12,273 nucleotides of DNA, taken from positions 1 through 12,273 of the forward strand of contig JANXSE010000072.1 of the NCBI GenBank assembly GCA_025356695.1, read 5' to 3'. The DNA comes from Betaproteobacteria bacterium (GTDB lineage: Bacteria > Pseudomonadota > Gammaproteobacteria > Burkholderiales > SG8-41). This document shows, in pieces, positions 1-12,222 of this stretch; the stretch's first letter is position 1; every line of letters starts with the position of its first letter. A model generated the notes under the pieces. The model made no database searches. It was not told where the DNA came from and was given only the letters and a program-made list of their open reading frames with translations. Both the position numbers and the translations under genes were made by a program.

Positions 1-506
1 GCGGAAGAACCGGTCAAAATCTGAATCGCTGCAAGCTTTTCGGCGGGTTTCGGCACATTGACTGCGGATTGCGGCGGACGGCTTTGTGTCGTGGTGGCCG
101 TCGGGTTGATCTGGGTGTCGCCGAAACTTCCGGCCGGCGGCGCGCCCATCGCTTTCGGCATCGGTGCGCGCAAAACCATGGTCTTCTCGAAATCCGCAAC
201 GCTGGCCTGTCCGGCGTTGGTGTCGTTCACGTACTTGAGCTTGTACTTGCCGATTTCGACAACATCATTGGTTTGCAGGATGTGCTTCTTGACCGGGTTG
301 CCGTTGACGAGCGTGCCGTTAGTGCTACCCAAATCCTCCAGGAACGAATCATTCAGTATCGTCACGATCAACGCGTGCTCGCCGCTGACGGCGAGGTTAT
401 CAATCTGAATATCGTTATGAGGCTTTCGGCCGATCGTGAACCGCTCTTTGTCGAGCGGCACTTCGCGGATTACCGCGTTGTCCAGACTCATGATCAACTT
501 TGCCAT
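1..506 (-). CDS. FHA-domain protein, 3' part cut by window edge
   Basis: Cytoplasmic phosphothreonine-reading protein, partial: 168 residues are visible and the frame is still open at base 1. The start is an ATG at 506-504, with a modest AGGGAT 9 bases upstream. The FHA domain spans about residues 20-93. It shows the family landmarks Gly26-Arg27, the phosphothreonine-contacting SxxH (Ser41-Gly-Glu-His44) and the STNGT turn (Asn63, Gly64, Thr65). After the domain comes a Pro/Ala/Thr-rich, probably disordered stretch (about 100-155), including Thr109 in the sequence KTMVL. The C-terminal fate is unknown; family members may carry a further domain or membrane anchor. It lies 21 bases after the PP2C gene in the same operon as a Ser/Thr kinase, so it is probably a substrate or effector of that kinase. 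The FHA assignment is firm; the role is inferred from neighbours. Confidence 0.93.
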   Translation of the reverse strand, partial: MAKLIMSLDNAVIREVPLDKERFTIGRKPHNDIQIDNLAVSGEHALIVTILNDSFLEDLGSTNGTLVNGNPVKKHILQTNDVVEIGKYKLKYVNDTNAGQASVADFEKTMVLRAPMPKAMGAPPAGSFGDTQINPTATTTQSRPPQSAVNVPKPAEKLAAIQILTGSS

Positions 507-527
507 GGCAGTATCCCTGTAACCTTA

Positions 528-1358
528 TTATCTAAACCACGCCTTGAACCTGGCAAACCAGCCGGTCGGCGCTGCAAAATCTCCAACTACGCGGACAAGT
601 ATTACCGAAATATTGTCGCGCCCGCCGCAGTCATTGGCGAGTTGTACCAGTTGCTTGGCTGCAAGCGGCAGATTTGCACGCATTGCATCAAGCGTGGCAT
701 GAATGTCCTCGTCCTGCACCATGTCGCTCAAACCATCGGAACAAAGCAGATATATATCGCCCTGCTCTACATCGTAGGTATGAATTTCCGTTTCAACGTC
801 AGGATCAATACCTACCGCGCGCGTAACCAGATTCTTGTTCTGCGAATAACGCGCCTGCTCCTTGGTAATCATGCCGCTGTCGATCTGCTCCTGCAAAAGC
901 GAGTGGTCGCGCGTCACCTGCGAGAAATCGTCATTGCGCAATCTGTAGAGCCGGGAGTCGCCGATATGACCGACCGCCATGCGGTTGTCGAAGAACAGCG
1001 CGACCACCAGCGTCGTTCCCATACCGGCATACTGCGGCTGGCTTTTTGCAGTCTGATAAATCGCCGCGTTTGCCTTGCCTGAATTTTCGCGCACCAGCGT
1101 CGCCGCCATTGGTTCGCTCGCGCCATCAACCATCTTGTGCGGATCGTGATCCTGCAGCGCCTGCTTCATTTCAGTCGTCAGCATCGCGACCGCGATGCCG
1201 CTGGCGACTTCGCCGGCGTTGTAGCCGCCCATGCCGTCGGCAAGAACAGCAAGCCCCAATTCCGCGTCGGCGGCAATACTGTCTTCATTGTGCGACCGCA
1301 CCATACCTGGATCGGTGGCGGTGGCAATTTCAAGTGCAGTCGCTAAGTTTGCAGCCAT
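528..1358 (-). CDS. PP2C-family Ser/Thr protein phosphatase
   Basis: Soluble, metal-dependent (Mg/Mn) protein phosphatase of the bacterial PP2C/Stp type; 276 residues is slightly above the usual 240-260. All signature motifs are visible in order: RSHNED (Glu25, Asp26), LADGMGG (Asp41, Gly42), GMGTTLV (112-118), HIGDSRLY (131-138), TRDHSL (149-154), CSDGLSDMV (206-214, Asp208) and GGRDNISV (245-252, Asp248). The metal-coordinating acidic residues are therefore intact and the enzyme should be active. No signal peptide or membrane segment is seen. The ATG at 1358 is only 3 bases after the kinase stop codon and has no good ribosome-binding site of its own, so translational coupling to the kinase gene is likely. 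It presumably reverses phosphorylation of the kinase itself and of the FHA protein encoded downstream. Confidence 0.96.
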   Translation of the reverse strand: MAANLATALEIATATDPGMVRSHNEDSIAADAELGLAVLADGMGGYNAGEVASGIAVAMLTTEMKQALQDHDPHKMVDGASEPMAATLVRENSGKANAAIYQTAKSQPQYAGMGTTLVVALFFDNRMAVGHIGDSRLYRLRNDDFSQVTRDHSLLQEQIDSGMITKEQARYSQNKNLVTRAVGIDPDVETEIHTYDVEQGDIYLLCSDGLSDMVQDEDIHATLDAMRANLPLAAKQLVQLANDCGGRDNISVILVRVVGDFAAPTGWFARFKAWFR

Positions 1359-1361
1359 AAT

Positions 1362-3911
1362 TTACAACCCGATGTCCACAACGTCTGATTTTGCGGCAAG
1401 CTCGCCGCCCTCGGCACCGCAAGCTTTGATCGCGCGCGCCATTTCTTCGCCGTTCTGAAAACGTTCCGCAGGATCTTTTGCCAGCGAACGATTGACGATA
1501 TCAACCAGGCACTGCGGCAAATCCGGACTAAACGTCAGGATATCGACGTGCGGCTCGTTGGCAATTTTGAACATCAGCTGTGCCATCGAATCGCCCTGAA
1601 ACGGCAGATGCCCGCTGGCCAATTGATATAGGGTGACACCCAGTGAAAACAGATCGGAGCCACCTTCGATTTTTTTGCCTGCGAGCTGCTCGGGAGACAT
1701 GTAGCTCGGCGTGCCCAGCACCATGCCGGTCTTGGTTTTCGACGAATCGGTAATGCGCGCGATGCCGAAATCGGTCACTTTAACCGTGTCGCTCTCGAGA
1801 TCGTACATGATATTGGCCGGCTTGATATCGCGATGCACGACCTGGTTGGAGTGAGCGTACGACAGTGCGTCGGCAACCCGCGCGACGATGCTCATGACCT
1901 TGGGCAGCGGCAGCAGATTATCCGGTTTGATGTACGGCGCGAGATCCTTGCCTTTGAGGAACTCCATCGCGATAAATGCAAGGTCATGCTCTTCGCCGGC
2001 ATCGAATATCGTAACGATATTCGGGTGATTCAGACGTCCTGCCGTTTCCGCCTCGCGGAAAAAACGGTCTTTCACATCCTGCAATTCATCGGCCTCGAAT
2101 TCCTGCGATAGCGCCATCGTTTTGATTGCAACGACACGGCCGATTTTCGGATCTTTGCCGAGGTAGACCACGCCCATGGCGCCCTTGCCCAATTCCTTCT
2201 CGACCTGGTAACGGCCCAGCATCGGCTTCTCGACGCCGCCGCCGGGCAGAATAACCGTGCCGCCAGGATGACTGCCGCCACCGCCGAGAATGACCGTCTC
2301 CGACATCGCCTTGGCGCGACCGACGCGATCGGCAATATCCTTGAACTTCGGATTCTTCTCGGAAATGTAGCGGAAGGCGTTCTCCGCCTTGTTGAACTGA
2401 CGCTTGCGCTCGTAATCAAGCGCCAGGTTGTAAATCAGATCAAGCACAGAGTCGTCAGGCGGCAGCTTGCGGAAATAATCAAATGCGGTATCCAGCTGGC
2501 CCTGCCCCTGATAACCGAGACCGAGCATGCGATGGCTTTGCGCCAGATCGACATCCGAACGCGCCTTGCCGCTTTCCGTAACAAGAAACCGCTTGGTGGT
2601 CAGCGCCAGGTGGCCGATCAGCAAAAGTGTGAGCGATGCCATCAACTGTATCCACATCAGTTGTGTGCCCATCAACACAAAATGTGCAACCAGCAGCGCA
2701 ACGAACATGGCCGCGGTACAAATCGCTCCCATGCCCGCCTTGAGCCGCGGCAGCAGCGCAATCAGGTACGCAGCCACTAGGAGAAATACCAGATACTCGA
2801 CCCATACCGCCCATGACGGGCGCACAAAAAAATCTTCCTTCAGGATGCTCGATACCGAATGCGCGAGCGTCTCGACCGGCGTCATACGCCCGATCGGCGT
2901 CGGAAAACTCGTGCCCAACCCTGAAGCTGTGGCGCCGATCAGCACGATTTTGTCCTGATATTTGGCGGCCGGAATCTTGCCGGTGTACACGTCGAAAAAC
3001 GAATCAACCGGGAATGCCTGCTTGCCGTCGCGGTCACCGTAGAAAAACGTATACATGCGCAGTTCCGGATCCGTTCGGATGCGCAATTTGCCGAGCTTTA
3101 CTTCCTCGCCCAACTTGAACTGGATGTCGGCAATGCCGAGATTCAGGGTTTTCGCTGCGAGCATCAACGACAGCGAAGGAAAGAATCGATCGTAGTAGCG
3201 CACCATCAAAGGTTCGGCGCGCGAGGCGCCGTCCACGTCCTGTTGCGCATTGAGGTGACCAAAGCCAACCGCACTCGCCGCAAGTTCCGCAATCGGATAA
3301 CCGGGATTGATGCCCGGCGGCGGCAGACTCTCCGCGTTGCGATCCTTTGAAACGATGCTGTTTGCCGCAATATTTTCCGGCAACGGTTTGTCGGGATTGC
3401 CCTGCGGCTCAAACGGAAACTGCTGAAACACGATCGGCAGCAGAACGTTGTTCGCCTTCTTGAAACTGTCGGCAAGTTTCTGGTCGGTATTGAGCGCCGC
3501 CGATGCTTCGCTCAGCAGAGTTTCGAGCTTTTCGATATCCGGTTCTTTCGAGCCCTTGAGGCGGGACGCGGCGAAGGTTTCATTGAGCTTGTTGATGTAA
3601 CTCAGCCCCGCGTCAACCTGCGGTTCGAAAAAGAATGCGCTGTAACCGATGGTCTTTGCTTTCGCATTCGACAAAATATCGGTCATCTTGGCGTGCACAT
3701 CACGCGGCCATGGCCAACGACCGATGTTGGCGATGCTTTGGTCGTCGATCGCGATCACAGCAATGCGATCAGAAGGCGTACGTGAAGCAGCCTTCACGCC
3801 AAGATCATAGGCCTTGCGTTCTAGACTCTGAATCAAGTCGCCGTTGGATGCGATCAACAGCACCAGCGCAACCATTAATCCGAGAAACCAGTCGGATTTC
3901 CAAAAGGTCAA
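1362..3911 (-). CDS. CHASE2-domain membrane Ser/Thr protein kinase with TPR-like linker
   Basis: Transmembrane receptor-like kinase of 849 residues. One N-terminal membrane helix (about 8-22) is followed by a periplasmic CHASE2 sensor domain (about 25-360) and three membrane helices (about 369-387, 393-413, 417-437), which returns the chain to the cytoplasm. A TPR-like pair (about 458-520) and a Gly-rich linker with TVIL at 539-542 and 552-555 come next. The Hanks-type kinase domain runs from about 566 to 830, with glycine loop GKGAMG (575-580), VAIK lysine Lys597, helix-C Glu620, HRDIKPAN (Asp695), DFG (Asp714) and GTPSYMSPEQ. All catalytic residues are present. The CHASE2 ligand is unknown. 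The start used here is TTG at 3911-3909, behind GGGG 8 bases upstream. An ATG at 3919-3917 has the better Shine-Dalgarno but is out of frame by one base. Only the first few residues are in doubt. Confidence 0.95.
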   Translation of the reverse strand: MTFWKSDWFLGLMVALVLLIASNGDLIQSLERKAYDLGVKAASRTPSDRIAVIAIDDQSIANIGRWPWPRDVHAKMTDILSNAKAKTIGYSAFFFEPQVDAGLSYINKLNETFAASRLKGSKEPDIEKLETLLSEASAALNTDQKLADSFKKANNVLLPIVFQQFPFEPQGNPDKPLPENIAANSIVSKDRNAESLPPPGINPGYPIAELAASAVGFGHLNAQQDVDGASRAEPLMVRYYDRFFPSLSLMLAAKTLNLGIADIQFKLGEEVKLGKLRIRTDPELRMYTFFYGDRDGKQAFPVDSFFDVYTGKIPAAKYQDKIVLIGATASGLGTSFPTPIGRMTPVETLAHSVSSILKEDFFVRPSWAVWVEYLVFLLVAAYLIALLPRLKAGMGAICTAAMFVALLVAHFVLMGTQLMWIQLMASLTLLLIGHLALTTKRFLVTESGKARSDVDLAQSHRMLGLGYQGQGQLDTAFDYFRKLPPDDSVLDLIYNLALDYERKRQFNKAENAFRYISEKNPKFKDIADRVGRAKAMSETVILGGGGSHPGGTVILPGGGVEKPMLGRYQVEKELGKGAMGVVYLGKDPKIGRVVAIKTMALSQEFEADELQDVKDRFFREAETAGRLNHPNIVTIFDAGEEHDLAFIAMEFLKGKDLAPYIKPDNLLPLPKVMSIVARVADALSYAHSNQVVHRDIKPANIMYDLESDTVKVTDFGIARITDSSKTKTGMVLGTPSYMSPEQLAGKKIEGGSDLFSLGVTLYQLASGHLPFQGDSMAQLMFKIANEPHVDILTFSPDLPQCLVDIVNRSLAKDPAERFQNGEEMARAIKACGAEGGELAAKSDVVDIGL

Positions 3912-4219: not shown

Positions 4220-5152
4220 CTAGCTGCCCAGCAACGTCCCCGCAGCAATTCCACCGCTTTGTGCGACTTCACCGCCGCTCAATTTCTTGCCGTCTTCGAA
4301 TTTCGCCTTCAAAACCTCAATGGTGCCACCCTGCGCGCTTACTTTGAAACTTTGCGCCGTGACCGCAGAAACCTCGCCAATTTTGGCCGGCACGTCCGCA
4401 AAACGTCTGAAAAGTACCTTTTTTGCGTCAAAAATCTGCAATTTCTTGCCGTTTAACGTGGTCCACGCGCCCGGCGCGGGATTGCAGCCACGGATCAGGT
4501 TGTAGACGTGGTCAACCGGTTTGGCCCAGTCGATCTTTGCTTCGGCACTGCGGCACCAGCCTTCGTAACTCGCCAGTGATTCGTCTTGCACGATTTCCTG
4601 GTGCTTGCCCGCAACCACCAGGTCGGCCGCCTCAACCATCGCCTGCACGCCCATCGGGAACAGCCGGTCGAAGTACACAGTGCCGAGTGTGTCGTCGGCG
4701 CTAAGCGGCGTCTTCTTTTGCAAAATGACTGCGCCCTCGTCGAGGCCGTCGGTCGGCCGGAATATTGTCAGCCCGGTCTCGGTCTCGCCTTTGATGATCG
4801 GCCAGTTGATCGAACTCGGGCCGCGGAACTTCGGCAGCAACGAAGGATGAAACTGAATGGTTCCGCATTTCGGAATATTGACGAATTCCTGCGGCGCGAA
4901 CTGCAGCACGAAGGCCATCACGCCTACATCCACATTCGCTTCCTTCATCGCCTGCACGGCCTCGGGTGCGCGCAGCGATTTGAACTGATGCACCTTGAGC
5001 CCTTTTTCCTGCGCCGCCACGCGCAGCACGTCCGGCCGCGCACCTTCTTTTTCCGGCGCACAGAATACCGCGGCCACTTCATCGCCGCGCGCCAGAAATG
5101 CGTCAAGCACTGCTTTGCCGAAATCCTGCTGCCCGATAATCGCGATTTTCAT
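4220..5152 (-). CDS. Formyltransferase / 10-formyl-THF hydrolase-like protein in the oxalate operon
   Basis: A cytoplasmic protein of 310 residues with a formyl_trans N-domain (about 1-180) and an Fmt-C-like domain (about 203-300). The core motif FHPSLLPKFRGPSSINW (101-117) with downstream DGLDEG places catalytic His102 and Asp138 36 residues apart, the spacing found in Fmt and in the hydrolase domain of 10-formyltetrahydrofolate dehydrogenase. The HPSLLP...INW wording recalls the latter more than tRNA formyltransferase. The Asn of Fmt two positions before the His is Gln100 here. It starts 9 bases after the frc stop, and its AGGAG Shine-Dalgarno (5159-5163) overlaps that stop codon, indicating coupled translation with frc. 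Automatic annotation would probably call it methionyl-tRNA formyltransferase; context suggests instead that it moves or releases the formyl group generated from oxalate. The exact substrate is inference. Confidence 0.88.
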   Translation of the reverse strand: MKIAIIGQQDFGKAVLDAFLARGDEVAAVFCAPEKEGARPDVLRVAAQEKGLKVHQFKSLRAPEAVQAMKEANVDVGVMAFVLQFAPQEFVNIPKCGTIQFHPSLLPKFRGPSSINWPIIKGETETGLTIFRPTDGLDEGAVILQKKTPLSADDTLGTVYFDRLFPMGVQAMVEAADLVVAGKHQEIVQDESLASYEGWCRSAEAKIDWAKPVDHVYNLIRGCNPAPGAWTTLNGKKLQIFDAKKVLFRRFADVPAKIGEVSAVTAQSFKVSAQGGTIEVLKAKFEDGKKLSGGEVAQSGGIAAGTLLGS

Positions 5153-5161
5153 TTTCAGCTC

Positions 5162-6427
5162 CTACTTTTTCTTCGGCGGCATTGAAAATGCACCGGCCTG
5201 TTTCTTCGCCTCGATATCAGCGTCGCTCAAACCGAGCACATCGCGCAACACTTCGTCGGTATGCTCACCGAGCGTCGGCGAACGTTTGATCACCGCCGGC
5301 GACGCCGACAGCTTGATCGGCATGCCGACGTTGAACCACTTGCCGCGCTGCGGATGGTCGAGTTCGACATACATTTCACGACCGCGCACATGCTCATCGT
5401 TGGCCAGATCCGCCGTCGACATGATGGGGCCGCAAGGCACGTCGAGCGGATTGAGTATCGCCATGAATTCGCGCTTGGTGTAGTTGGCGGCGAACTGTTC
5501 AATGTACTTCCACATATCCGCCTGGTTCTTGCGGCGATCGCCGATTTTCGCGAACCGCGCATCCGTCGCCAGATCAGGTTGCCCAAGGTCGGAACCGATG
5601 CGCTTCGCCAGCGCGTCCCAGACCGCTTCCTGCACCACGACGTAAATATAGTCGTCGACGCCACCCGGTTTGCATTTGATCGCGTTGCCGAGCTGGCCAC
5701 CGCCCGAATCGTTGCCTGCGCGCGGCGTTGCCGGCAGGCCTTCGGTCGGCCGCGAATATTCCGAGAGACCGCCATGTGTGAGGCGCTGGTGATCGCGCCA
5801 CTTCACGCGGCACAGGTTCATCACCGCGTCCATCATCGCCACTTCGACGTACTGTCCCTGCCCGGTGCGATCGCGTTGATGCAGTGCCGCCAGGAGGCCG
5901 ATGGCCAGATGCAGGCCGGTCCCCGAATCGCCGATCTGCGCGCCGGTGACGAAGGGCGGGCCTTCGGGCGTGCCGGTGGTGCTCATCGCGCCGCCCATCG
6001 CCTGCGCCACGTTTTCGTACGCTTTAAAATCAGAATAGGGGCCCGAAGAACCGAAACCCTTGATCGACCCCATGACGATGCGCGGATTGATCTCGTGTAT
6101 TTTTTCCCAGGTAAAACCGAAACGATCGAGCACGCCGGGGCCGAAGTTCTCCATGATGATGTCGCACTTCATCAACAGATCGACAAAAATTTTCTTGCCT
6201 TCCGGATTCTTCATGTTCACCGTAATCGAACGTTTGTTGCTGTTCAACATGGTGAAGTAAAGGCTGTCGGCATTCGGCACGTCGCGCAGCTGGCCGCGCG
6301 TCGCGTCGCCCTGCGGCGGTTCGAACTTGATGACATCGGCGCCCATCCACGCCAGCAGTTGCGAGCAGGTCGGCCCCGCCTGCACGTGCGTCATGTCGAG
6401 TATGCGTATTCCCTTTAGTGCTTCCAT
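5162..6427 (-). CDS. frc: Formyl-CoA:oxalate CoA-transferase (class III CoA-transferase)
   Basis: Cytoplasmic enzyme that transfers CoA from formyl-CoA to oxalate, giving oxalyl-CoA and formate. The 421 residues align by eye almost end to end with the 428-residue Oxalobacter formigenes Frc. Matches include THVQAGP (13-19), NADSLYFTM (52-60), NKRSI (64-68), [16 protein letters not shown] (93-108), the catalytic aspartate Asp167 in [16 protein letters not shown] (211-216) and the C-terminal [11 protein letters not shown]. The glycine loop that closes over the active site reads SGGGQ (241-245) instead of GGGGQ, and the Trp48 position of O. formigenes is Gln46. The start ATG at 6427 has AGAGGA 6 bases upstream. 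The position between oxc and the formyltransferase-like gene supports a true oxalate enzyme rather than another class III family member. The C-terminus is Lys-rich (PPKKK). Confidence 0.93.
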
Positions 6428-6531: not shown

Positions 6532-8277
6532 CTATTTCTTTTTTGCGCTTTGTGGATTGAGACTCGTGATGCGGCCGCTTTCAGTGCCGGCGGTTTCGTC
6601 GATCACGGCATTGATCAGCGTCGGTTTCTTCGAACGAATCGCCTCTTCCATCGCTTTGCGCAATTCGGCCGGTGTCGTCGCGTGCACGCCGACGCCGCCG
6701 AAGGCTTCAATCAATTTGTCGTAGCGCGCGCCCTTGACGAACACGGTGGGCGCCACGTCGGCGCCGCCGGTCGGATTGACGTCGGTACCGCGATAGACGC
6801 CGTTGTTGTTGAAAATCACAATGCAGACCGGCAGGTTGTAACGGCAGATAGTCTCGACTTCCATGCCGGAGAAACCGAAGGCGCTGTCGCCCTCGATCGC
6901 AATCACCGGCTGCTTGCTGACCACGGCGGCGGCAACCGCAAAGCCCATGCCGATGCCCATCACGCCCCAGGTGCCAACGTCAAGGCGCTTCCTCGGCTTG
7001 TACATGTCGACGATGCTGCGCGTGAAATCGAGCGCGTTCGCACCTTCGTTGACCAGCATGGCGTCCGGATTGGCCTTGACGATGTCGCGCACCACGTTCA
7101 ACGCGCTGTGATAATTCATCGGCACTGGATCTTTCGCCAGCGTCTCGGCCATCTTGGCAAGATTCTTGTTCTTGCGCTCGGCGATAGCTGAGATCCATTC
7201 CGCCGGCGGCTTCGCCCAATTTGAACCGATACCCGTGAGCAACGCTGACACGCAGGAGCCAATGTCGCCGACCAGCGGCGCATCGATGCGCACATTGCTG
7301 TCCGCCTCCTGCGGCGAAATATCGATCTGGATGTACTTCTGACCGCCCCAGTCCTTGTGGCCCTTGCCGCCCCAGGTCTTGCCTTTGCCGTGCGACAGCA
7401 GCCAGTTCAAACGCGCACCGATGATCATCACCACGTCGGCGCCGGGCAGTACGAACGAACGCGCCGCGGCAGCAGACTGCTCGTGCGTGTCGGGCAGCAG
7501 ACCCTTGGCCATCGACATCGGCAGATAAGGAATGCCGGTCTTTTCGATCAACGCGCGGATGTCTGCGTCAGCTTGCGCATAAGCAGCACCTTTGCCCAAA
7601 AGAATCAGCGGACGCTTGGCGCTCTTCAACAAATCAAGCGCGCGCTGCACGGCGTCCTGCGCCGGTATCTGGCGCGGCGCCGGATCGACCACCTTGATCA
7701 AGCTGTTCCTGCCGGCGACTGCATCCATGCCCTGCGCGAACAACTTGGCCGGCAGGTCGAGGTAAACACCACCCGGGCGACCGGAAACAGCGGCACGAAT
7801 CGCGCGCGCGACACCGACACCGATGTCCTCGGCGTTGAGCACGCGAAAGGCGGCCTTGCACAGCGGCTTGGCAATCGCCAGCTGATCCATTTCCTCGTAA
7901 TCGCCCTGCTGCAAATCGACGATCTCGCGCTCGCTCGAGCCGCTGATGAGGATCATTGGAAAGCAGTTGGTAGTGGCATTGGTCAGTGCGGTGAGTCCGT
8001 TCAGGAAGCCGGGCGCCGACACCGTCAGGCAGATACCGGGCTTTTGCGTCATGAAGCCGGCGATGGCGGCGGCGTTGCCGGCGTTTTGCTCGTGGCGGAA
8101 GGAAATTACACGCAGGCCTTCGGCCTGCGCCTTGCGCGTCAGGTCGGTGATCGGGATGCCGGGCAGACCGTAGATGGTGTCGATGCCGTTGAGTTTGAGG
8201 GCATCGATGAGCAGGTGAAAGCCGTCGGTCATCTCCTGCGAGGCCGAGACGTCCTTGTTTTCAGTAACCGTATCCAT
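6532..8277 (-). CDS. oxc: Oxalyl-CoA decarboxylase (thiamine diphosphate enzyme)
   Basis: Decarboxylates oxalyl-CoA to formyl-CoA and CO2, the energy-relevant step of oxalate breakdown. At 581 residues it is near the 568 of O. formigenes Oxc and very similar by eye. It shows the [12 protein letters not shown] opening (17-28), the ThDP-activating Glu63 in RHEQ, the [20 protein letters not shown] run (113-132, with Tyr127/Glu128), [16 protein letters not shown] (163-178) and GKGAAYAQ (228-235). The ThDP/Mg motif GDSAFGFS (463-470) through NNNGVY (490-495), and ESGRI (566-570), complete the set. An extra segment of about six residues lies near 303-313 relative to O. formigenes. The N-domain, middle and C-domain layout of the POX/ALS family is intact. 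The ATG at 8277 has a good AGGAG. It is the first gene of the oxalate operon, 104 bases before frc, and probably activated by the divergent Crp/Fnr regulator. Confidence 0.96.
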
Positions 8278-8303
8278 CGAAATCTCCTAATGAGAGAAGT
8301 TTT

Positions 8304-8321
8304 TCATTCCGCCCGGAATGA
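8304..8321. promoter_or_regulatory. 18-base inverted repeat in the oxc leader (possible operator)
   Basis: TCATTCCG-CC-CGGAATGA is a perfect 8-base inverted repeat with a 2-base spacer. It lies between the predicted oxc transcription start (about 8335) and its ATG (8277). The position downstream of the start suggests a repressor operator or a leader hairpin. A plus-strand T run follows (8325-8330), but no plus-strand gene precedes it, so a terminator role makes little sense. Confidence 0.55.
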
Positions 8322-8341
8322 TGCTTTTTTGAAGGGCTTTA

Positions 8342-8347
8342 AATATA
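8342..8347 (-). promoter_or_regulatory. Predicted -10 element of the oxc promoter
   Basis: TATATT on the minus strand matches the -10 consensus at five of six positions and places the transcription start near 8335. No good -35 hexamer lies 16-18 bases upstream; instead the FNR/CRP-like box is there, as in activator-dependent class II promoters. Confidence 0.55.
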
Positions 8348-8369
8348 TGCAGTGTGCGCCCCGACAGCC

Positions 8370-8383
8370 TTGACCACGGTCAA
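8370..8383. promoter_or_regulatory. FNR/CRP-like box between oxc and the Crp/Fnr regulator gene
   Basis: TTGACC-AC-GGTCAA (plus strand) is a perfect-arm palindrome matching the FNR-type layout TTGAT-N4-ATCAA with C/G at the fifth position. Its centre (8376.5) lies about 41.5 bases upstream of the predicted oxc start, the classic activating position. It lies about 34.5 bases upstream of the predicted start of the regulator gene, a position that would block or modulate that promoter. The adjacent regulator carries the matching E--SR recognition helix. Confidence 0.75.
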
Positions 8384-8398
8384 TAAACCCCGTTTTGG

Positions 8399-8404
8399 TA
8401 TACT
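8399..8404 (+). promoter_or_regulatory. Predicted -10 element of the Crp/Fnr regulator gene
   Basis: TATACT on the plus strand would start transcription near 8411, about 50 bases before the ATG. No convincing -35 is seen at the right spacing, because that position is occupied by the right half of the FNR/CRP-like box. Confidence 0.45.
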
Positions 8405-8461
8405 CAAACCGCCGCAATCTTTCGTCGCCACAACGCTTTACGCAAGGCACGATCTGGTCCG

Positions 8462-9079
8462 ATGACTGCCCTCGCCAAACATTCCGAAGCCAAATTCATT
8501 CGCCTGCAGCTGCGCCAGAATCTGGTGCTGAAGTCGATGACTGCCGCGCAATGGTCCGAGCTCGAACCATTGCTCGACATTACCGATTACGCCAAGGGCG
8601 CGCCGCTCGAAAACCAGGGCGACGAGTCGATGCAGCAATATTTCATACTCGACGGCATACTCAAGCGCGTCGTCTCCAGTCCGTCGGGCAAGGAAATGAT
8701 CCTGCGCTTTGGCGCCGAAACCGAAATCGATACCAGCTACGCTGCGTGGCGCCTGAAAACACCGATGCCGTACTCGATCCGCGCGGTGACGCGCGCGCGC
8801 ACGGCGCGCCTCGCCCTCGAGGACTGGGTGGCATTTCTCAATCGCCATCCGTCGATCAAGAACCAGTTTGAATTTGCCGTCATGAAACTCATGAGCGAAG
8901 TCATGGCACATACCATCACACTGCACTTGCTCGACGCGCCGGGCCGCGTTGCACGCTTCATGCGCAAACACGCTGCGCTGATCGAGCGCGTGCCGAAAAA
9001 AGAGCTCGCGTCCTACCTCAATCTGTCGCCGGAAACGCTGTCGCGGCTCAAACGCCGCGGCAAGATCAATCTCGACTGA
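8462..9079 (+). CDS. Crp/Fnr-family transcriptional regulator, cysteine-free, probable oxalate operon regulator
   Basis: DNA-binding regulator of 205 residues. The N-terminal cyclic-nucleotide-binding-like beta-barrel spans about 18-122 (GAPLENQGD and YFILDGILKRV are typical) and a dimerisation helix about 131-155. The C-terminal helix-turn-helix lies at about 178-200, with recognition helix SPETLSRL: Glu191, Ser194 and Arg195 match the E--SR of FNR that reads TTGA half-sites. There is no cysteine anywhere, so it cannot hold an FNR-type iron-sulfur cluster, and the N-terminal Cys extension is absent. The chain ends six residues after the RRG, so the usual wing is shortened. The ligand is unknown. 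The ATG at 8462 lacks a clear Shine-Dalgarno, but no upstream in-frame start exists. It is divergent from oxc across 184 bases and convergent with tctA. Confidence 0.92.
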   Translation: MTALAKHSEAKFIRLQLRQNLVLKSMTAAQWSELEPLLDITDYAKGAPLENQGDESMQQYFILDGILKRVVSSPSGKEMILRFGAETEIDTSYAAWRLKTPMPYSIRAVTRARTARLALEDWVAFLNRHPSIKNQFEFAVMKLMSEVMAHTITLHLLDAPGRVARFMRKHAALIERVPKKELASYLNLSPETLSRLKRRGKINLD

Positions 9080-9102: not shown

Positions 9103-9121
9103 GCCGCCTAGGAACGGCGGC
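9103..9121. other. Stem-loop at the convergent regulator/tctA junction
   Basis: GCCGCC (9103-9108) pairs with GGCGGC (9116-9121) around loop TAGGAAC, overlapping the tctA stop codon. The two converging genes are only 28 bases apart. No U-tract is present for either strand, so any termination here would be weak or factor-dependent. Confidence 0.4.
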
Positions 9122-10604
9122 TGCCCAGCGCAAGCAATTTCGAAATCAGCGGCCAGAACAGCAGCATCAGCGACAGGCCCATGATGGTGCCGACCAGACC
9201 GTTCGCAAAGAACACGTCCATGCTGCCCTGCGAAATCAGCATCGACTGCCGGAACGAATCTTCGGCGCGGTCCCCGAGCACGAGGGCCAACACCATAGGC
9301 GCCATCGGATAGTCGAGCTTCTTGAATACATAGCCCATAACGCCGAACATCATCATGAACCAGATGTCGAGCATGGCATTGTGCACGGTGAATGCGCCGA
9401 TCGCGCAAATCACCACGATGATGGGCGCGATGATCGAAAACGGAATGCGCAGGATTGCCGCGAACAGCGGCACACAGGTCAGCACGATAATCAGACCGGC
9501 GAGATTGCCCAGATACATGCTGGCAATCAACCCCCAGACGAAATCTTTTTTCTCGACGAACAGCAACGGTCCCGGCTGCAGCCCCCAGATCAGCAAGCCG
9601 CCGAGCAGCACCGCGGCCGTCGGTGACCCGGGAATGCCCAGCGCCAGCATCGGCAGCAGCGCCGAAGTGCCGGCCGCATGCGCCGCCGTTTCCGGCGCCA
9701 CCACACCTTCCAACTGACCCGTACCGAATTTGTTGCCTTGCGGCGACATGCGTTTGGCCACGCCATAGCTCATGAATGATGCCGGCGTCGCGCCGCCCGG
9801 CGTAATGCCCATCCAGCAGCCAATCACGCAGCTTCTGAGCGAAGTCACCCAGTAGCGCGGTAGCTTGCGCCAGGTTTCCACCACCACCTTGAAATTGATC
9901 TTGGCGTTGTTGCCCGAGAACGACAGGCCTTCCTCCATCGACAGCAGAATTTCGCCGATGCCAAAGAGGCCGATCACCGCCACCAGAAAATCAAAACCGC
10001 GCAGCAGTTCGTGCCAGCCGAAAATCAAACGCAACTGGCCGGTCACCGTGTCCATGCCGACAGCGGCCAGCGCGAAGCCGAGCATCATCGCCGCCAGTGT
10101 TTTGAACGCCTGCCCCTTGCCCATGCCGATGAAACTGCAAAAGGTCAGGAAGTAGACCGAGAAAAATTCCGGCGGGCCGAACTTGAGCGCGAATTTGGCG
10201 ACCAGCGGCGCGAGAAAGGTGATCATCACCACCGCGACGAAGGCGCCGACAAAAGACGAGGTGAAGGCCGCGGTCAGCGCCTCACCGGCGCGCCCCTGCT
10301 GCGCCATCGGATAACCGTCAAAAGTAGTGGCCACCGACCACGGTTCGCCCGGAATATTGAACAGCACACTGGTAATCGCGCCACCGAACAACGCGCCCCA
10401 GTAAATGCACGACAGCATGATGATCGCCGATGTCGGCTGCATGGTGAACGTCAGCGGCAGCAGAATGGCAATGCCGTTGGCGCCGCCAAGACCGGGCAAC
10501 ACGCCGATGATGATGCCGAGCGTAATGCCGACGAACATCAGCACCAGGTTCAATGGTGTGAGCGCAACGGCAAAACCATGCATTAACGCGTTGATTTCTT
10601 CCAA
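9108..10604 (-). CDS. tctA: Tripartite tricarboxylate transporter large permease subunit (TctA family)
   Basis: Inner-membrane permease of 498 residues, the family's usual length, with about 11-12 hydrophobic segments. The duplicated family motifs are visible: GVLPGLGGANGIAILLP (34-50) in the first half, GITPGGATPASFMSYG (266-281) in the second, then APETAAHAAG (303-312) and LGIPGSPTAAVLLGG (322-336). It works with TctB and the periplasmic TctC to import organic acids using the ion gradient. The start is TTG at 10604, preceded by GAGGA with 6 bases of spacing. The first ATG (codon 8) has no ribosome-binding site and would trim the conserved N-terminus, so TTG is preferred. It starts 23 bases after tctB as the last gene of the operon. 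The substrate is unknown; proximity to oxc/frc hints at oxalate or a similar diacid. Confidence 0.95.
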   Translation of the reverse strand: MEEINALMHGFAVALTPLNLVLMFVGITLGIIIGVLPGLGGANGIAILLPLTFTMQPTSAIIMLSCIYWGALFGGAITSVLFNIPGEPWSVATTFDGYPMAQQGRAGEALTAAFTSSFVGAFVAVVMITFLAPLVAKFALKFGPPEFFSVYFLTFCSFIGMGKGQAFKTLAAMMLGFALAAVGMDTVTGQLRLIFGWHELLRGFDFLVAVIGLFGIGEILLSMEEGLSFSGNNAKINFKVVVETWRKLPRYWVTSLRSCVIGCWMGITPGGATPASFMSYGVAKRMSPQGNKFGTGQLEGVVAPETAAHAAGTSALLPMLALGIPGSPTAAVLLGGLLIWGLQPGPLLFVEKKDFVWGLIASMYLGNLAGLIIVLTCVPLFAAILRIPFSIIAPIIVVICAIGAFTVHNAMLDIWFMMMFGVMGYVFKKLDYPMAPMVLALVLGDRAEDSFRQSMLISQGSMDVFFANGLVGTIMGLSLMLLFWPLISKLLALGSRRS

Positions 10605-11205: not shown

Positions 11206-12222
11206 TTACGGTTTGGCGAGGAAGCCGGCGTCTTTCATCAGGTCGCGGTGCAGGGCTTCGTTCTTCTCGACCCACGCCATGTATTCCTTGCCGCTCATGG
11301 TGGTCTGGTTGAACGCGCCGTCCTCCATGAATTTTTTCCAGTCCGGCGTTTCGCGTACCTTCTTCATCAGATCGACGTAAAACGCGACCTGTTCCGGCGT
11401 CACGCCGCCGGGCATGAAGATGCCACGCAACATCACGTAATCGGTCGGCACACCCGCCTCGCTGCAGGTCGGGATGTCGTTCCACGACATTTTTTCAGTG
11501 ACCTTGTTTTTGTACGGCATGCGCGTGTCGTCAAACACGCACAGCGGCCGCAGCGCGCCGGCGCGCCATTGTGCAACCGCCTCAATCGGGTTGTTTACCG
11601 TCGAATCGATATGCTTGCCGACCAGTTGCACGGCGACATCGCCGCCGCCTTTGAACGGCAGATAGGTGAACTTGATACCCGTCGCCTTTTCAAGACCGAC
11701 CGTGATGATCTGGTCTTCCTGGCGCGAACCGGTGCCGCCCATTTTCATCTTGTTCGGGCCGGCTTTTTTTACCGCCTCGACGTATTCTTTGGCAGATTGG
11801 TAGGGCGACTCGGCATTCACCCACAGCACGAACTGGTCAAGCGCCAGCATCGACACCGGCGTCATGTCACGCCAGTTGAACGGCACACCGGTAGCCAGTG
11901 GCGTCGTAAAAAGATTCGACAGCGTAATGACGATTTTATGCGGGTCGCCCTTGGCTTCCTTCATCGCCAGAAAGCCTTCGGCGCCTGCGCCGCCCGATTT
12001 ATTGACGGGCACCAGCGACTGCTTCATCAGATTGTGCTTGGCAACGATGCCCTGGATCAGCCGCGCCATCTGGTCGGCGCCGCCGCCGGTACCGGCCGGT
12101 ATAACGAACTCAACCGGTTTGGTCGGCTCCCACGCCGCCGCAAGTCCAACGGCGGGAACAGCCAATCCGGCAATACCCGCAGCCAACGTAAACACCACAC
12201 GCGAACATGTTTTGAGTTTCAT
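11206..12222 (-). CDS. tctC: Bug-family periplasmic solute-binding protein (TctC)
   Basis: Periplasmic substrate-binding component of 338 residues. A Sec signal peptide (about 1-29: Lys-rich start, hydrophobic core, cleavage probably within GLAAA-W) precedes the two-lobed Bug fold. Family landmarks are PVEFVIPAGTGGGADQMAR (36-54, the first ligand loop), LPFKGGGDVAVQLVGKHID (188-206) and GVTPEQV (273-279). Two cysteines in the mature chain (Cys228, Cys253) could form a disulfide, uncommon enough to note. The start ATG at 12222 has a very strong GAGGAGGAG 6 bases upstream. It heads the tctC-tctB-tctA operon; the promoter is partly or wholly beyond the right edge. Bug proteins bind diverse carboxylates, so the ligand cannot be read from the sequence. 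The neighbouring oxalate genes make a small dicarboxylate plausible. Confidence 0.94.
   Translation of the reverse strand: MKLKTCSRVVFTLAAGIAGLAVPAVGLAAAWEPTKPVEFVIPAGTGGGADQMARLIQGIVAKHNLMKQSLVPVNKSGGAGAEGFLAMKEAKGDPHKIVITLSNLFTTPLATGVPFNWRDMTPVSMLALDQFVLWVNAESPYQSAKEYVEAVKKAGPNKMKMGGTGSRQEDQIITVGLEKATGIKFTYLPFKGGGDVAVQLVGKHIDSTVNNPIEAVAQWRAGALRPLCVFDDTRMPYKNKVTEKMSWNDIPTCSEAGVPTDYVMLRGIFMPGGVTPEQVAFYVDLMKKVRETPDWKKFMEDGAFNQTTMSGKEYMAWVEKNEALHRDLMKDAGFLAKP

Follow-up and report, generated by a model that had tools for sequence, protein, structure and literature searches.

A conserved palindrome upstream of oxc as the probable operator of a pathway-specific Crp/Fnr-type activator in Betaproteobacteria

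The palindrome TTGACC-AC-GGTCAA, located between oxc and a divergent gene of the Crp/Fnr superfamily, is, judged by comparison across relatives, a conserved and real operator, most likely that of a pathway-specific Crp/Fnr activator. We consider it highly probable that this activator is the product of the divergent gene and that the pathway under its control is oxalate catabolism.

The oxalate locus and its divergent promoters

The window (the entire 12,273-bp stretch that was analyzed) contains a leftward row of three genes on the minus strand: oxc, encoding oxalyl-CoA decarboxylase (6532..8277; TIGR03254, 992.8 bits, cut-off 739.4); frc, encoding formyl-CoA transferase (5162..6427; TIGR03253, 571.7 bits, cut-off 504.2); and a gene for an Fmt-like formyltransferase (4220..5152; PF00551 and PF02911, below the cut-off for the methionyl-tRNA formyltransferase Fmt). 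The formyltransferase gene adjoins frc in many relatives, and its product might transfer the formyl group from formyl-CoA to tetrahydrofolate (THF). The regulator gene (8462..9079, plus strand) diverges from this row, and on its other side are tctA (9108..10604, minus strand; PF01970) and tctC (11206..12222, minus strand; PF03401), the latter encoding the binding protein of a tripartite tricarboxylate transporter. Relatives have a box upstream of tctC; here the window extends only 51 bp beyond the start of that gene, so that such a box cannot be seen. Positions 3-3911 (minus strand) appear, from the letters of their open reading frames, to encode a Ser/Thr kinase with a CHASE2-like N-terminal part and, adjacent to it, a PP2C-like phosphatase and an FHA-domain protein, a phosphosignaling cassette near the oxalate genes.

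The operator palindrome, TTGACCACGGTCAA, occupies positions 8370..8383 (no strand assigned; center at 8376.5) and consists of two perfect 6-bp arms separated by a 2-bp spacer. The predicted -10 hexamer of the oxc promoter, TATATT (8342..8347, minus strand; AATATA on the plus strand), starts 29 bp from the box center. Setting -7 at 8342 gives a predicted oxc transcription start at 8335 (minus strand), which would place the box center at -41.5. The initial annotation had described a perfect-arm palindrome centered about 41.5 bp upstream of the start predicted from TATATT, and reading the sequence confirmed this arrangement. More generally, a TAnnnT hexamer starting 29 or 30 bp from the box center (here called a class II -10) corresponds to a center at -41.5 or -42.5, and class II promoters have their site near -41.5, overlapping the -35 element. 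In Sphingopyxis, the mapped class II FNR boxes of most regulated operons are centered between -40.5 and -42.5 (PMC7713065); class II CRP/GlxR sites overlap -35 (PMC5449483). A sigma-70 promoter scan of 8260-8480 found no site with both hexamers, as expected if an activator replaces the -35 element.

On the opposite strand, the sequence TATACT (8399..8404, plus strand), preceded by TGG, is the candidate -10 hexamer of the regulator's own promoter. The predicted regulator start is near 8411, so that the box would cover the -35 region of this promoter. TTGACC was rejected as the -35 element itself, since its spacer to TATACT is 23 bp. TATACT starts at offset 22 in the window and in five other loci (L001, L002, L005, L007, and L027) and at offset 23 in L019, a spacing common to a minority of loci that includes close relatives. 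A further inverted repeat, TCATTCCGCCCGGAATGA at 8304-8321, lies in the predicted oxc leader; its 8-bp arms are perfect, its spacer is 2 bp, and it is terminator-like on the plus strand. It was discarded as a second operator or leader element because the whole is not kept in four aligned close relatives, with L007 retaining part of it.

The divergent regulator and its association with the box

The initial annotation had assigned the divergent gene to the Crp/Fnr family and had pointed to E--SR recognition residues in its product, and both assignments hold. The 205-aa protein matches PF00027 (cNMP_binding; 32.3 bits, cut-off 27.5), and the best of its AlphaFold models (pLDDT 90; 69 to 79 for the other four) has the predicted CRP fold, with the N-terminal cyclic-nucleotide-binding-like beta barrel of the superfamily, and matches CRP/GlxR proteins (GlxR 3r6s, TM 0.80 at 20% identity). 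The model also places a C-terminal helix-turn-helix in helices 179-185 and 190-198; no HTH_Crp Pfam match was obtained at an E value of 0.001. Within the recognition helix, SPETLSR (codons 9026..9046, plus strand), the residues E191, T192, S194, and R195 are invariant in 35 aligned orthologs, and S189, P190, and L193 vary in some; the chain stops a few residues past this helix. A protein search scored at least 8,000 relatives, and the 120 among the matches listed are 81 to 93% identical to the regulator and 202 to 232 aa long. A plasmid search returned 10 records, all below 32% identity.

TTGA-N6-TCAA is the core of FNR-type sites, and E..SR are the FNR recognition residues. The window system resembles FNR at class II promoters in both of these features and in the position of the box, and it differs in its arms, which favor TTGACC/GGTCAA, and in its cysteines. 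The N-terminal Fe-S cysteines of the FNR subfamily were not found: the window regulator is free of cysteine, and the cysteines present in 10/35 aligned orthologs are at no invariant or nearly invariant column, so the regulator has no FNR-type Fe-S oxygen sensor. The likeness to CRP/GlxR lies in the predicted fold and in a class II site over -35. However, the cAMP phosphate-binding cassette of the CRP subfamily is not kept in the one pairwise alignment made (to GlxR, 4cyd), where the GE and RT positions correspond to T91-S92 and M102-P103; the score against the CRP equivalog model is 26.5 bits (cut-off 266); and the window box has TTGA half-sites, whereas those of CRP are TGTGA. DNR of Pseudomonas (3dkw), the second-best sequence match in the PDB, has PETFSR where the window regulator has PETLSR, but DNR serves denitrification and the window regulator is tied to oxalate genes.

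The presence of oxc and the regulator was scored in 399 genomes of the order, at E values of 1e-120 and 1e-25, respectively. Both genes were found in 67 genomes, oxc only in 8, the regulator only in 9, and neither in 315 (raw counts, uncorrected for relatedness). Thus, among the 75 genomes with oxc and the 76 with the regulator, the latter accompanies oxc in 67/75 cases, compared to 9/324 genomes without oxc; 7 of these 9 have frc (72 to 80%) and the formyltransferase gene in the fetched stretch. The 400 bp upstream of the oxc match contained the box in 62/65 regulator-positive genomes and in 0/8 regulator-negative ones, two of the 67 (G218 and G396) having been dropped because of a contig edge. 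This contrast supports the earlier proposal that the box belongs with the neighboring regulator. In the three regulator-positive genomes with no box at oxc (G130, G212, and G253), the oxc in question does not adjoin the regulator; in G082, G087, G135, and G387 the two genes are likewise unlinked, yet the box is present. One regulator-negative genome, G317, has a loose TTGA-N6-TCAA 702 bp from oxc. In the family of G001 (74 genomes), the regulator gave a strong match (E value of 1e-90 or better) in 57 genomes, a fragment in 2, and no match in 15; true oxc (>45% identity) was found in 57 and both genes in 54. Most genomes are metagenome bins, and these counts ignore kinship.

The common core could also mean that the box is the site of a global oxygen/NO regulator (FNR, ANR, or DNR) that places oxalate use under anaerobic control, with the neighboring gene having other targets. 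Fnr (NF008365) exceeds its cut-off in 24/33 genomes tested, including 18/25 regulator-positive ones. Furthermore, one of 14 class II sites found in the regulon search described below (L260) precedes a hemN-like gene, hemN being a usual FNR target, and five bins of the family of G001 (G018, G022, G023, G024, and G056) retain class II boxes before fhs and/or sucC, with no match to the regulator or to true oxc (G023 has only a 40% paralog). These five bins may reflect missing contigs in incomplete assemblies, loss of the gene, or a second reader of the box. However, Fnr is over its cut-off in 6 of the 8 regulator-lacking oxc genomes, none of which has the box within 400 bp of oxc, and three genomes with a box and a class II -10 (G110, G426, and G450) have no Fnr match. 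G426 and G450 possess other cNMP-domain proteins; in G110, whose contig C1 (1.71 Mb) equals the rounded size of the genome, the regulator is the sole PF00027 match. Control by a global regulator is therefore improbable, and the divergent regulator is the preferred reader of the box.

Conservation of the box and its spacing

A genome scan for the regulator yielded 274 loci, of which the best 80, mostly bins of uncultured Betaproteobacteria with some doubtful species labels, were compared. Bins titled "Bordetella parapertussis" or "Chitinophaga pinensis" (L001, L004, L012, L022, L030, L032, and others) bear the betaproteobacterial oxalate locus, and their titles look doubtful. An oxc or frc match was present within the fetched stretch in 79/80 of these loci. 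The exception, L008, lies close to the end of a contig; the frc match of L062 and L063 is ~60% identical and more than 4 kb from the regulator. Two layouts recur. In the first, which is that of the window, the regulator diverges from oxc-frc-formyltransferase; in the second, it diverges from frc-formyltransferase, and oxc is found downstream of the regulator gene. A separate observation concerns L035 (4137-5831) and L233 (8133-9827), where a 564-aa TPP enzyme takes the position of oxc and frc, the formyltransferase gene, the regulator, and the box are retained. Both enzymes score under the cut-offs of the NCBIfam models shown, and among PDB entries that of L233 is closest to those of 2-hydroxyacyl-CoA lyases and related enzymes (7pt3 and 8vzk). 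L016, L052, L231, and L234 have the same layout, with no oxc match and frc ~2 kb from the regulator; identification of the enzyme itself covers L035 and L233 only. A cluster with a lyase-like TPP enzyme may handle a different acid that also yields formyl-CoA.

Conservation of the palindrome in orthologous loci had been set beforehand as a test that could refute the initial annotation, and the box withstood it: TTGA-N6-TCAA is present upstream of the regulator in 77/81 regions (the 80 loci and the window), all except L042, L054, L062, and L063. The distance from the box to the enzyme-side promoter was measured for genes that have TTGA[CT]-N5-TCAA no more than 300 bp from their start. In 100/100 boxed oxc and frc promoters, comprising 40/40 divergent oxc (window included), 31/31 frc, and 29/29 separated oxc promoters, the TAnnnT hexamer begins at a distance of 29 or 30 bp from the box center, and after clustering at 70% identity the count is 54/54; other adjacent pairs of offsets account for at most 8/100, with a mean of 1.6. 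This count leaves out the frc promoters of L042 and L054 (no box) and L080 (box 368 bp away), as well as the divergent side of seven loci without a divergent oxc or frc start placed within 600 bp. The spacing rule can be written as TTGACY-N2-RGTCAA followed by 22 or 23 bases and then TAnnnT. The predicted -10 spacing is thus that of a class II promoter throughout the locus set, consistent with the activating position at oxc that had been proposed for the window, and in 55 of 62 boxed oxc regions of the order-level set. The exceptions are G082, G087, G121, G135, G165, G301, and G387. In four of them, G121, G165, G301, and G387 (L215, L212, L213, and L174), two boxes 39 to 40 bp apart precede oxc, and TAnnnT is missing at the class II distance; the promoter of those lineages has another design.

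Where oxc has been relocated behind the regulator, it has a box of its own with identical spacing (29/29), which, at the level of sequence, amounts to a natural experiment. Tandem regulator-oxc pairs with the box and the spacing are also found in small genomes (e.g., G110 and G154). The boxed tctC promoters (n = 36) differ: TAnnnT is found at 29 or 30 bp in 0/36 and nAnnAT in 31/36, a weaker -10, and no other single offset accounts for more than three.

The regulator-side promoters bear on a second alternative, namely, that the regulator is mainly a repressor whose box blocks both its own promoter and oxc until an inducer releases it. The box does lie over the predicted -35 region of the regulator promoter in the window. 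However, the fixed 29/30-bp spacing to the enzyme-side -10 is activator geometry, and a box over -35 with a recognizable -10 was found in only 19/77 regulator-side promoters. TAnnnT with at least four of six matches is present in 55 of these 77, at scattered offsets, 14 of them at offset 46. Repression as the main role is likewise improbable, and activation of the enzyme genes remains the favored role. Because of the same scatter and the same 19/77 count, the self-repression that had been proposed from the overlap is plausible in the window bacterium and its close relatives but does not appear to be a conserved rule.

Taken alone, the match in the window is weak and unremarkable, since TTGA-N6-TCAA is expected 0.21 times by chance and occurred at least once in 39/200 shuffles of the window; in 20,000 shuffles of the 184-bp intergenic region, it occurred in 42 and TTGACC-N2-GGTCAA in none. 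The strong case for the box comes from the comparison across relatives, as the 80 loci (830,912 bp) hold 159 matches to TTGA[CT]-N4-[AG]TCAA and 0 to the reversed pattern. A functionless chance palindrome is untenable given this conservation.

Candidate regulon and proposed mechanism

The pattern TTGACYNNRGTCAA was searched for in 15 genomes and gave 52 sites in 14 of them, compared to 2 for the reversed control. The 39 stretches fetched hold 40 sites, which include the regulator-oxc box (L241) and, placed by coordinates, two tctC boxes (L238 at 2035 and L244). Class II spacing was found at 14/40 sites: 6 before fhs, 6 before sucC, 1 before oxc, and 1 before the hemN-like gene (targets named from their letters, with P0122 and P0123 checked by NCBIfam). 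The other 26 sites, many of them inside open reading frames, are treated as mostly chance matches or sites of other regulators. Among the 30 best of 63 genomes with sucC, the box was present upstream of this gene in 27 and accompanied by a class II -10 in 26; among the 30 best of 68 genomes with fhs, that gene had the box and a class II -10 in 5. With the box in only 5/30 upstream regions, fhs was rejected as a universal member of the regulon. Across the whole G001 family (74 genomes), TTGAC-N5-TCAA with the spacing gave 356 matches in 73 genomes, compared to 21 for the reversed control; the listed matches among the 356 include FNR-like sites.

Gene order connects these targets. In G001, sucC and sucD precede genes for a NuoF-like subunit and for the alpha subunit of a formate dehydrogenase (766.7 bits, cut-off 666.25), but the only box there is the one before fhs. 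G002 has the same order, judged from letters; in it sucC has a box, and so does fhs, which is separated. In G009, fhs comes directly after the formate dehydrogenase gene within the boxed row, and the sucC-sucD-dehydrogenase-fhs row, tct, oxc, and the frc side (frc placed from L036) all lie in a single stretch of 19.5 kb. Each of these four units has one box; a class II TAnnnT accompanies three of the boxes but not that of tct. The switch looks like an oxalate-to-formate regulon. The earlier description of a "self-contained" switch was therefore too narrow: class II boxes also precede separated oxc, sucC, and some fhs genes, and a weaker -10 accompanies the box at tctC.

From the spacing and the co-occurrence, we infer binding and class II activation as follows. 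A dimer of the regulator at 8370-8383, centered at -41.5, would act as a class II activator: it would replace the -35 element and bring RNA polymerase to the promoter of the oxc-frc-formyltransferase row. In the window bacterium, the same dimer would also lie over the -35 region of the promoter that serves the regulator gene and would thereby keep regulator synthesis in check. Copies of the box in relatives would bring tct (oxalate uptake), oxc, frc, sucCD-formate dehydrogenase, and sometimes fhs under the regulator. The signal to which the regulator responds is probably a pathway metabolite (oxalate, oxalyl-CoA, formyl-CoA, or formate), since the protein has neither FNR cysteines nor, in the alignment, the cAMP contacts of GlxR. 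Formyl-CoA or formate appears as possible as oxalate because a lyase-like TPP enzyme replaces oxc in some loci, where frc and the formyltransferase stay. A broader proposal can be put forward only tentatively, as a joint statement of its parts: that these regulators form a distinct Crp/Fnr subfamily with oxalate, oxalyl-CoA, or formyl-CoA as the ligand; that they would be the first dedicated master activator of oxalotrophy, with control over Tct uptake, oxc/frc, formate dehydrogenase, and the metabolism of formyl-THF in the Burkholderiales; and that the conserved formyltransferase could transfer formyl groups of formyl-CoA to THF, with the fhs reaction reversed for ATP.

In Escherichia coli, the oxalate genes yfdXWUVE are controlled by the acid-response system EvgAS; oxc/frc homologs are under control there as well, but by a two-component system and not by a Crp/Fnr protein. 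A search of open-licence papers by titles and the starts of abstracts found no Crp/Fnr regulator of oxalate genes, a scope that leaves room for a report in subscription papers; the words "regulator" and "Crp" are absent from the main text of PMC12927642, PMC9476978, and PMC10192776. A class II Crp/Fnr activator is thus a known mechanism, and its role in oxalate breakdown was found undescribed in the open-licence literature searched.

Much work on oxalate degradation by oxc/frc is motivated by kidney stones and soil carbon. A candidate regulator, an operator, and a spacing rule can now be named for this pathway, and 62 of the genomes sampled have the box at oxc. The predicted switch can be tested in cultured relatives, and a natural promoter or sensor that responds to oxalate could be derived from it.
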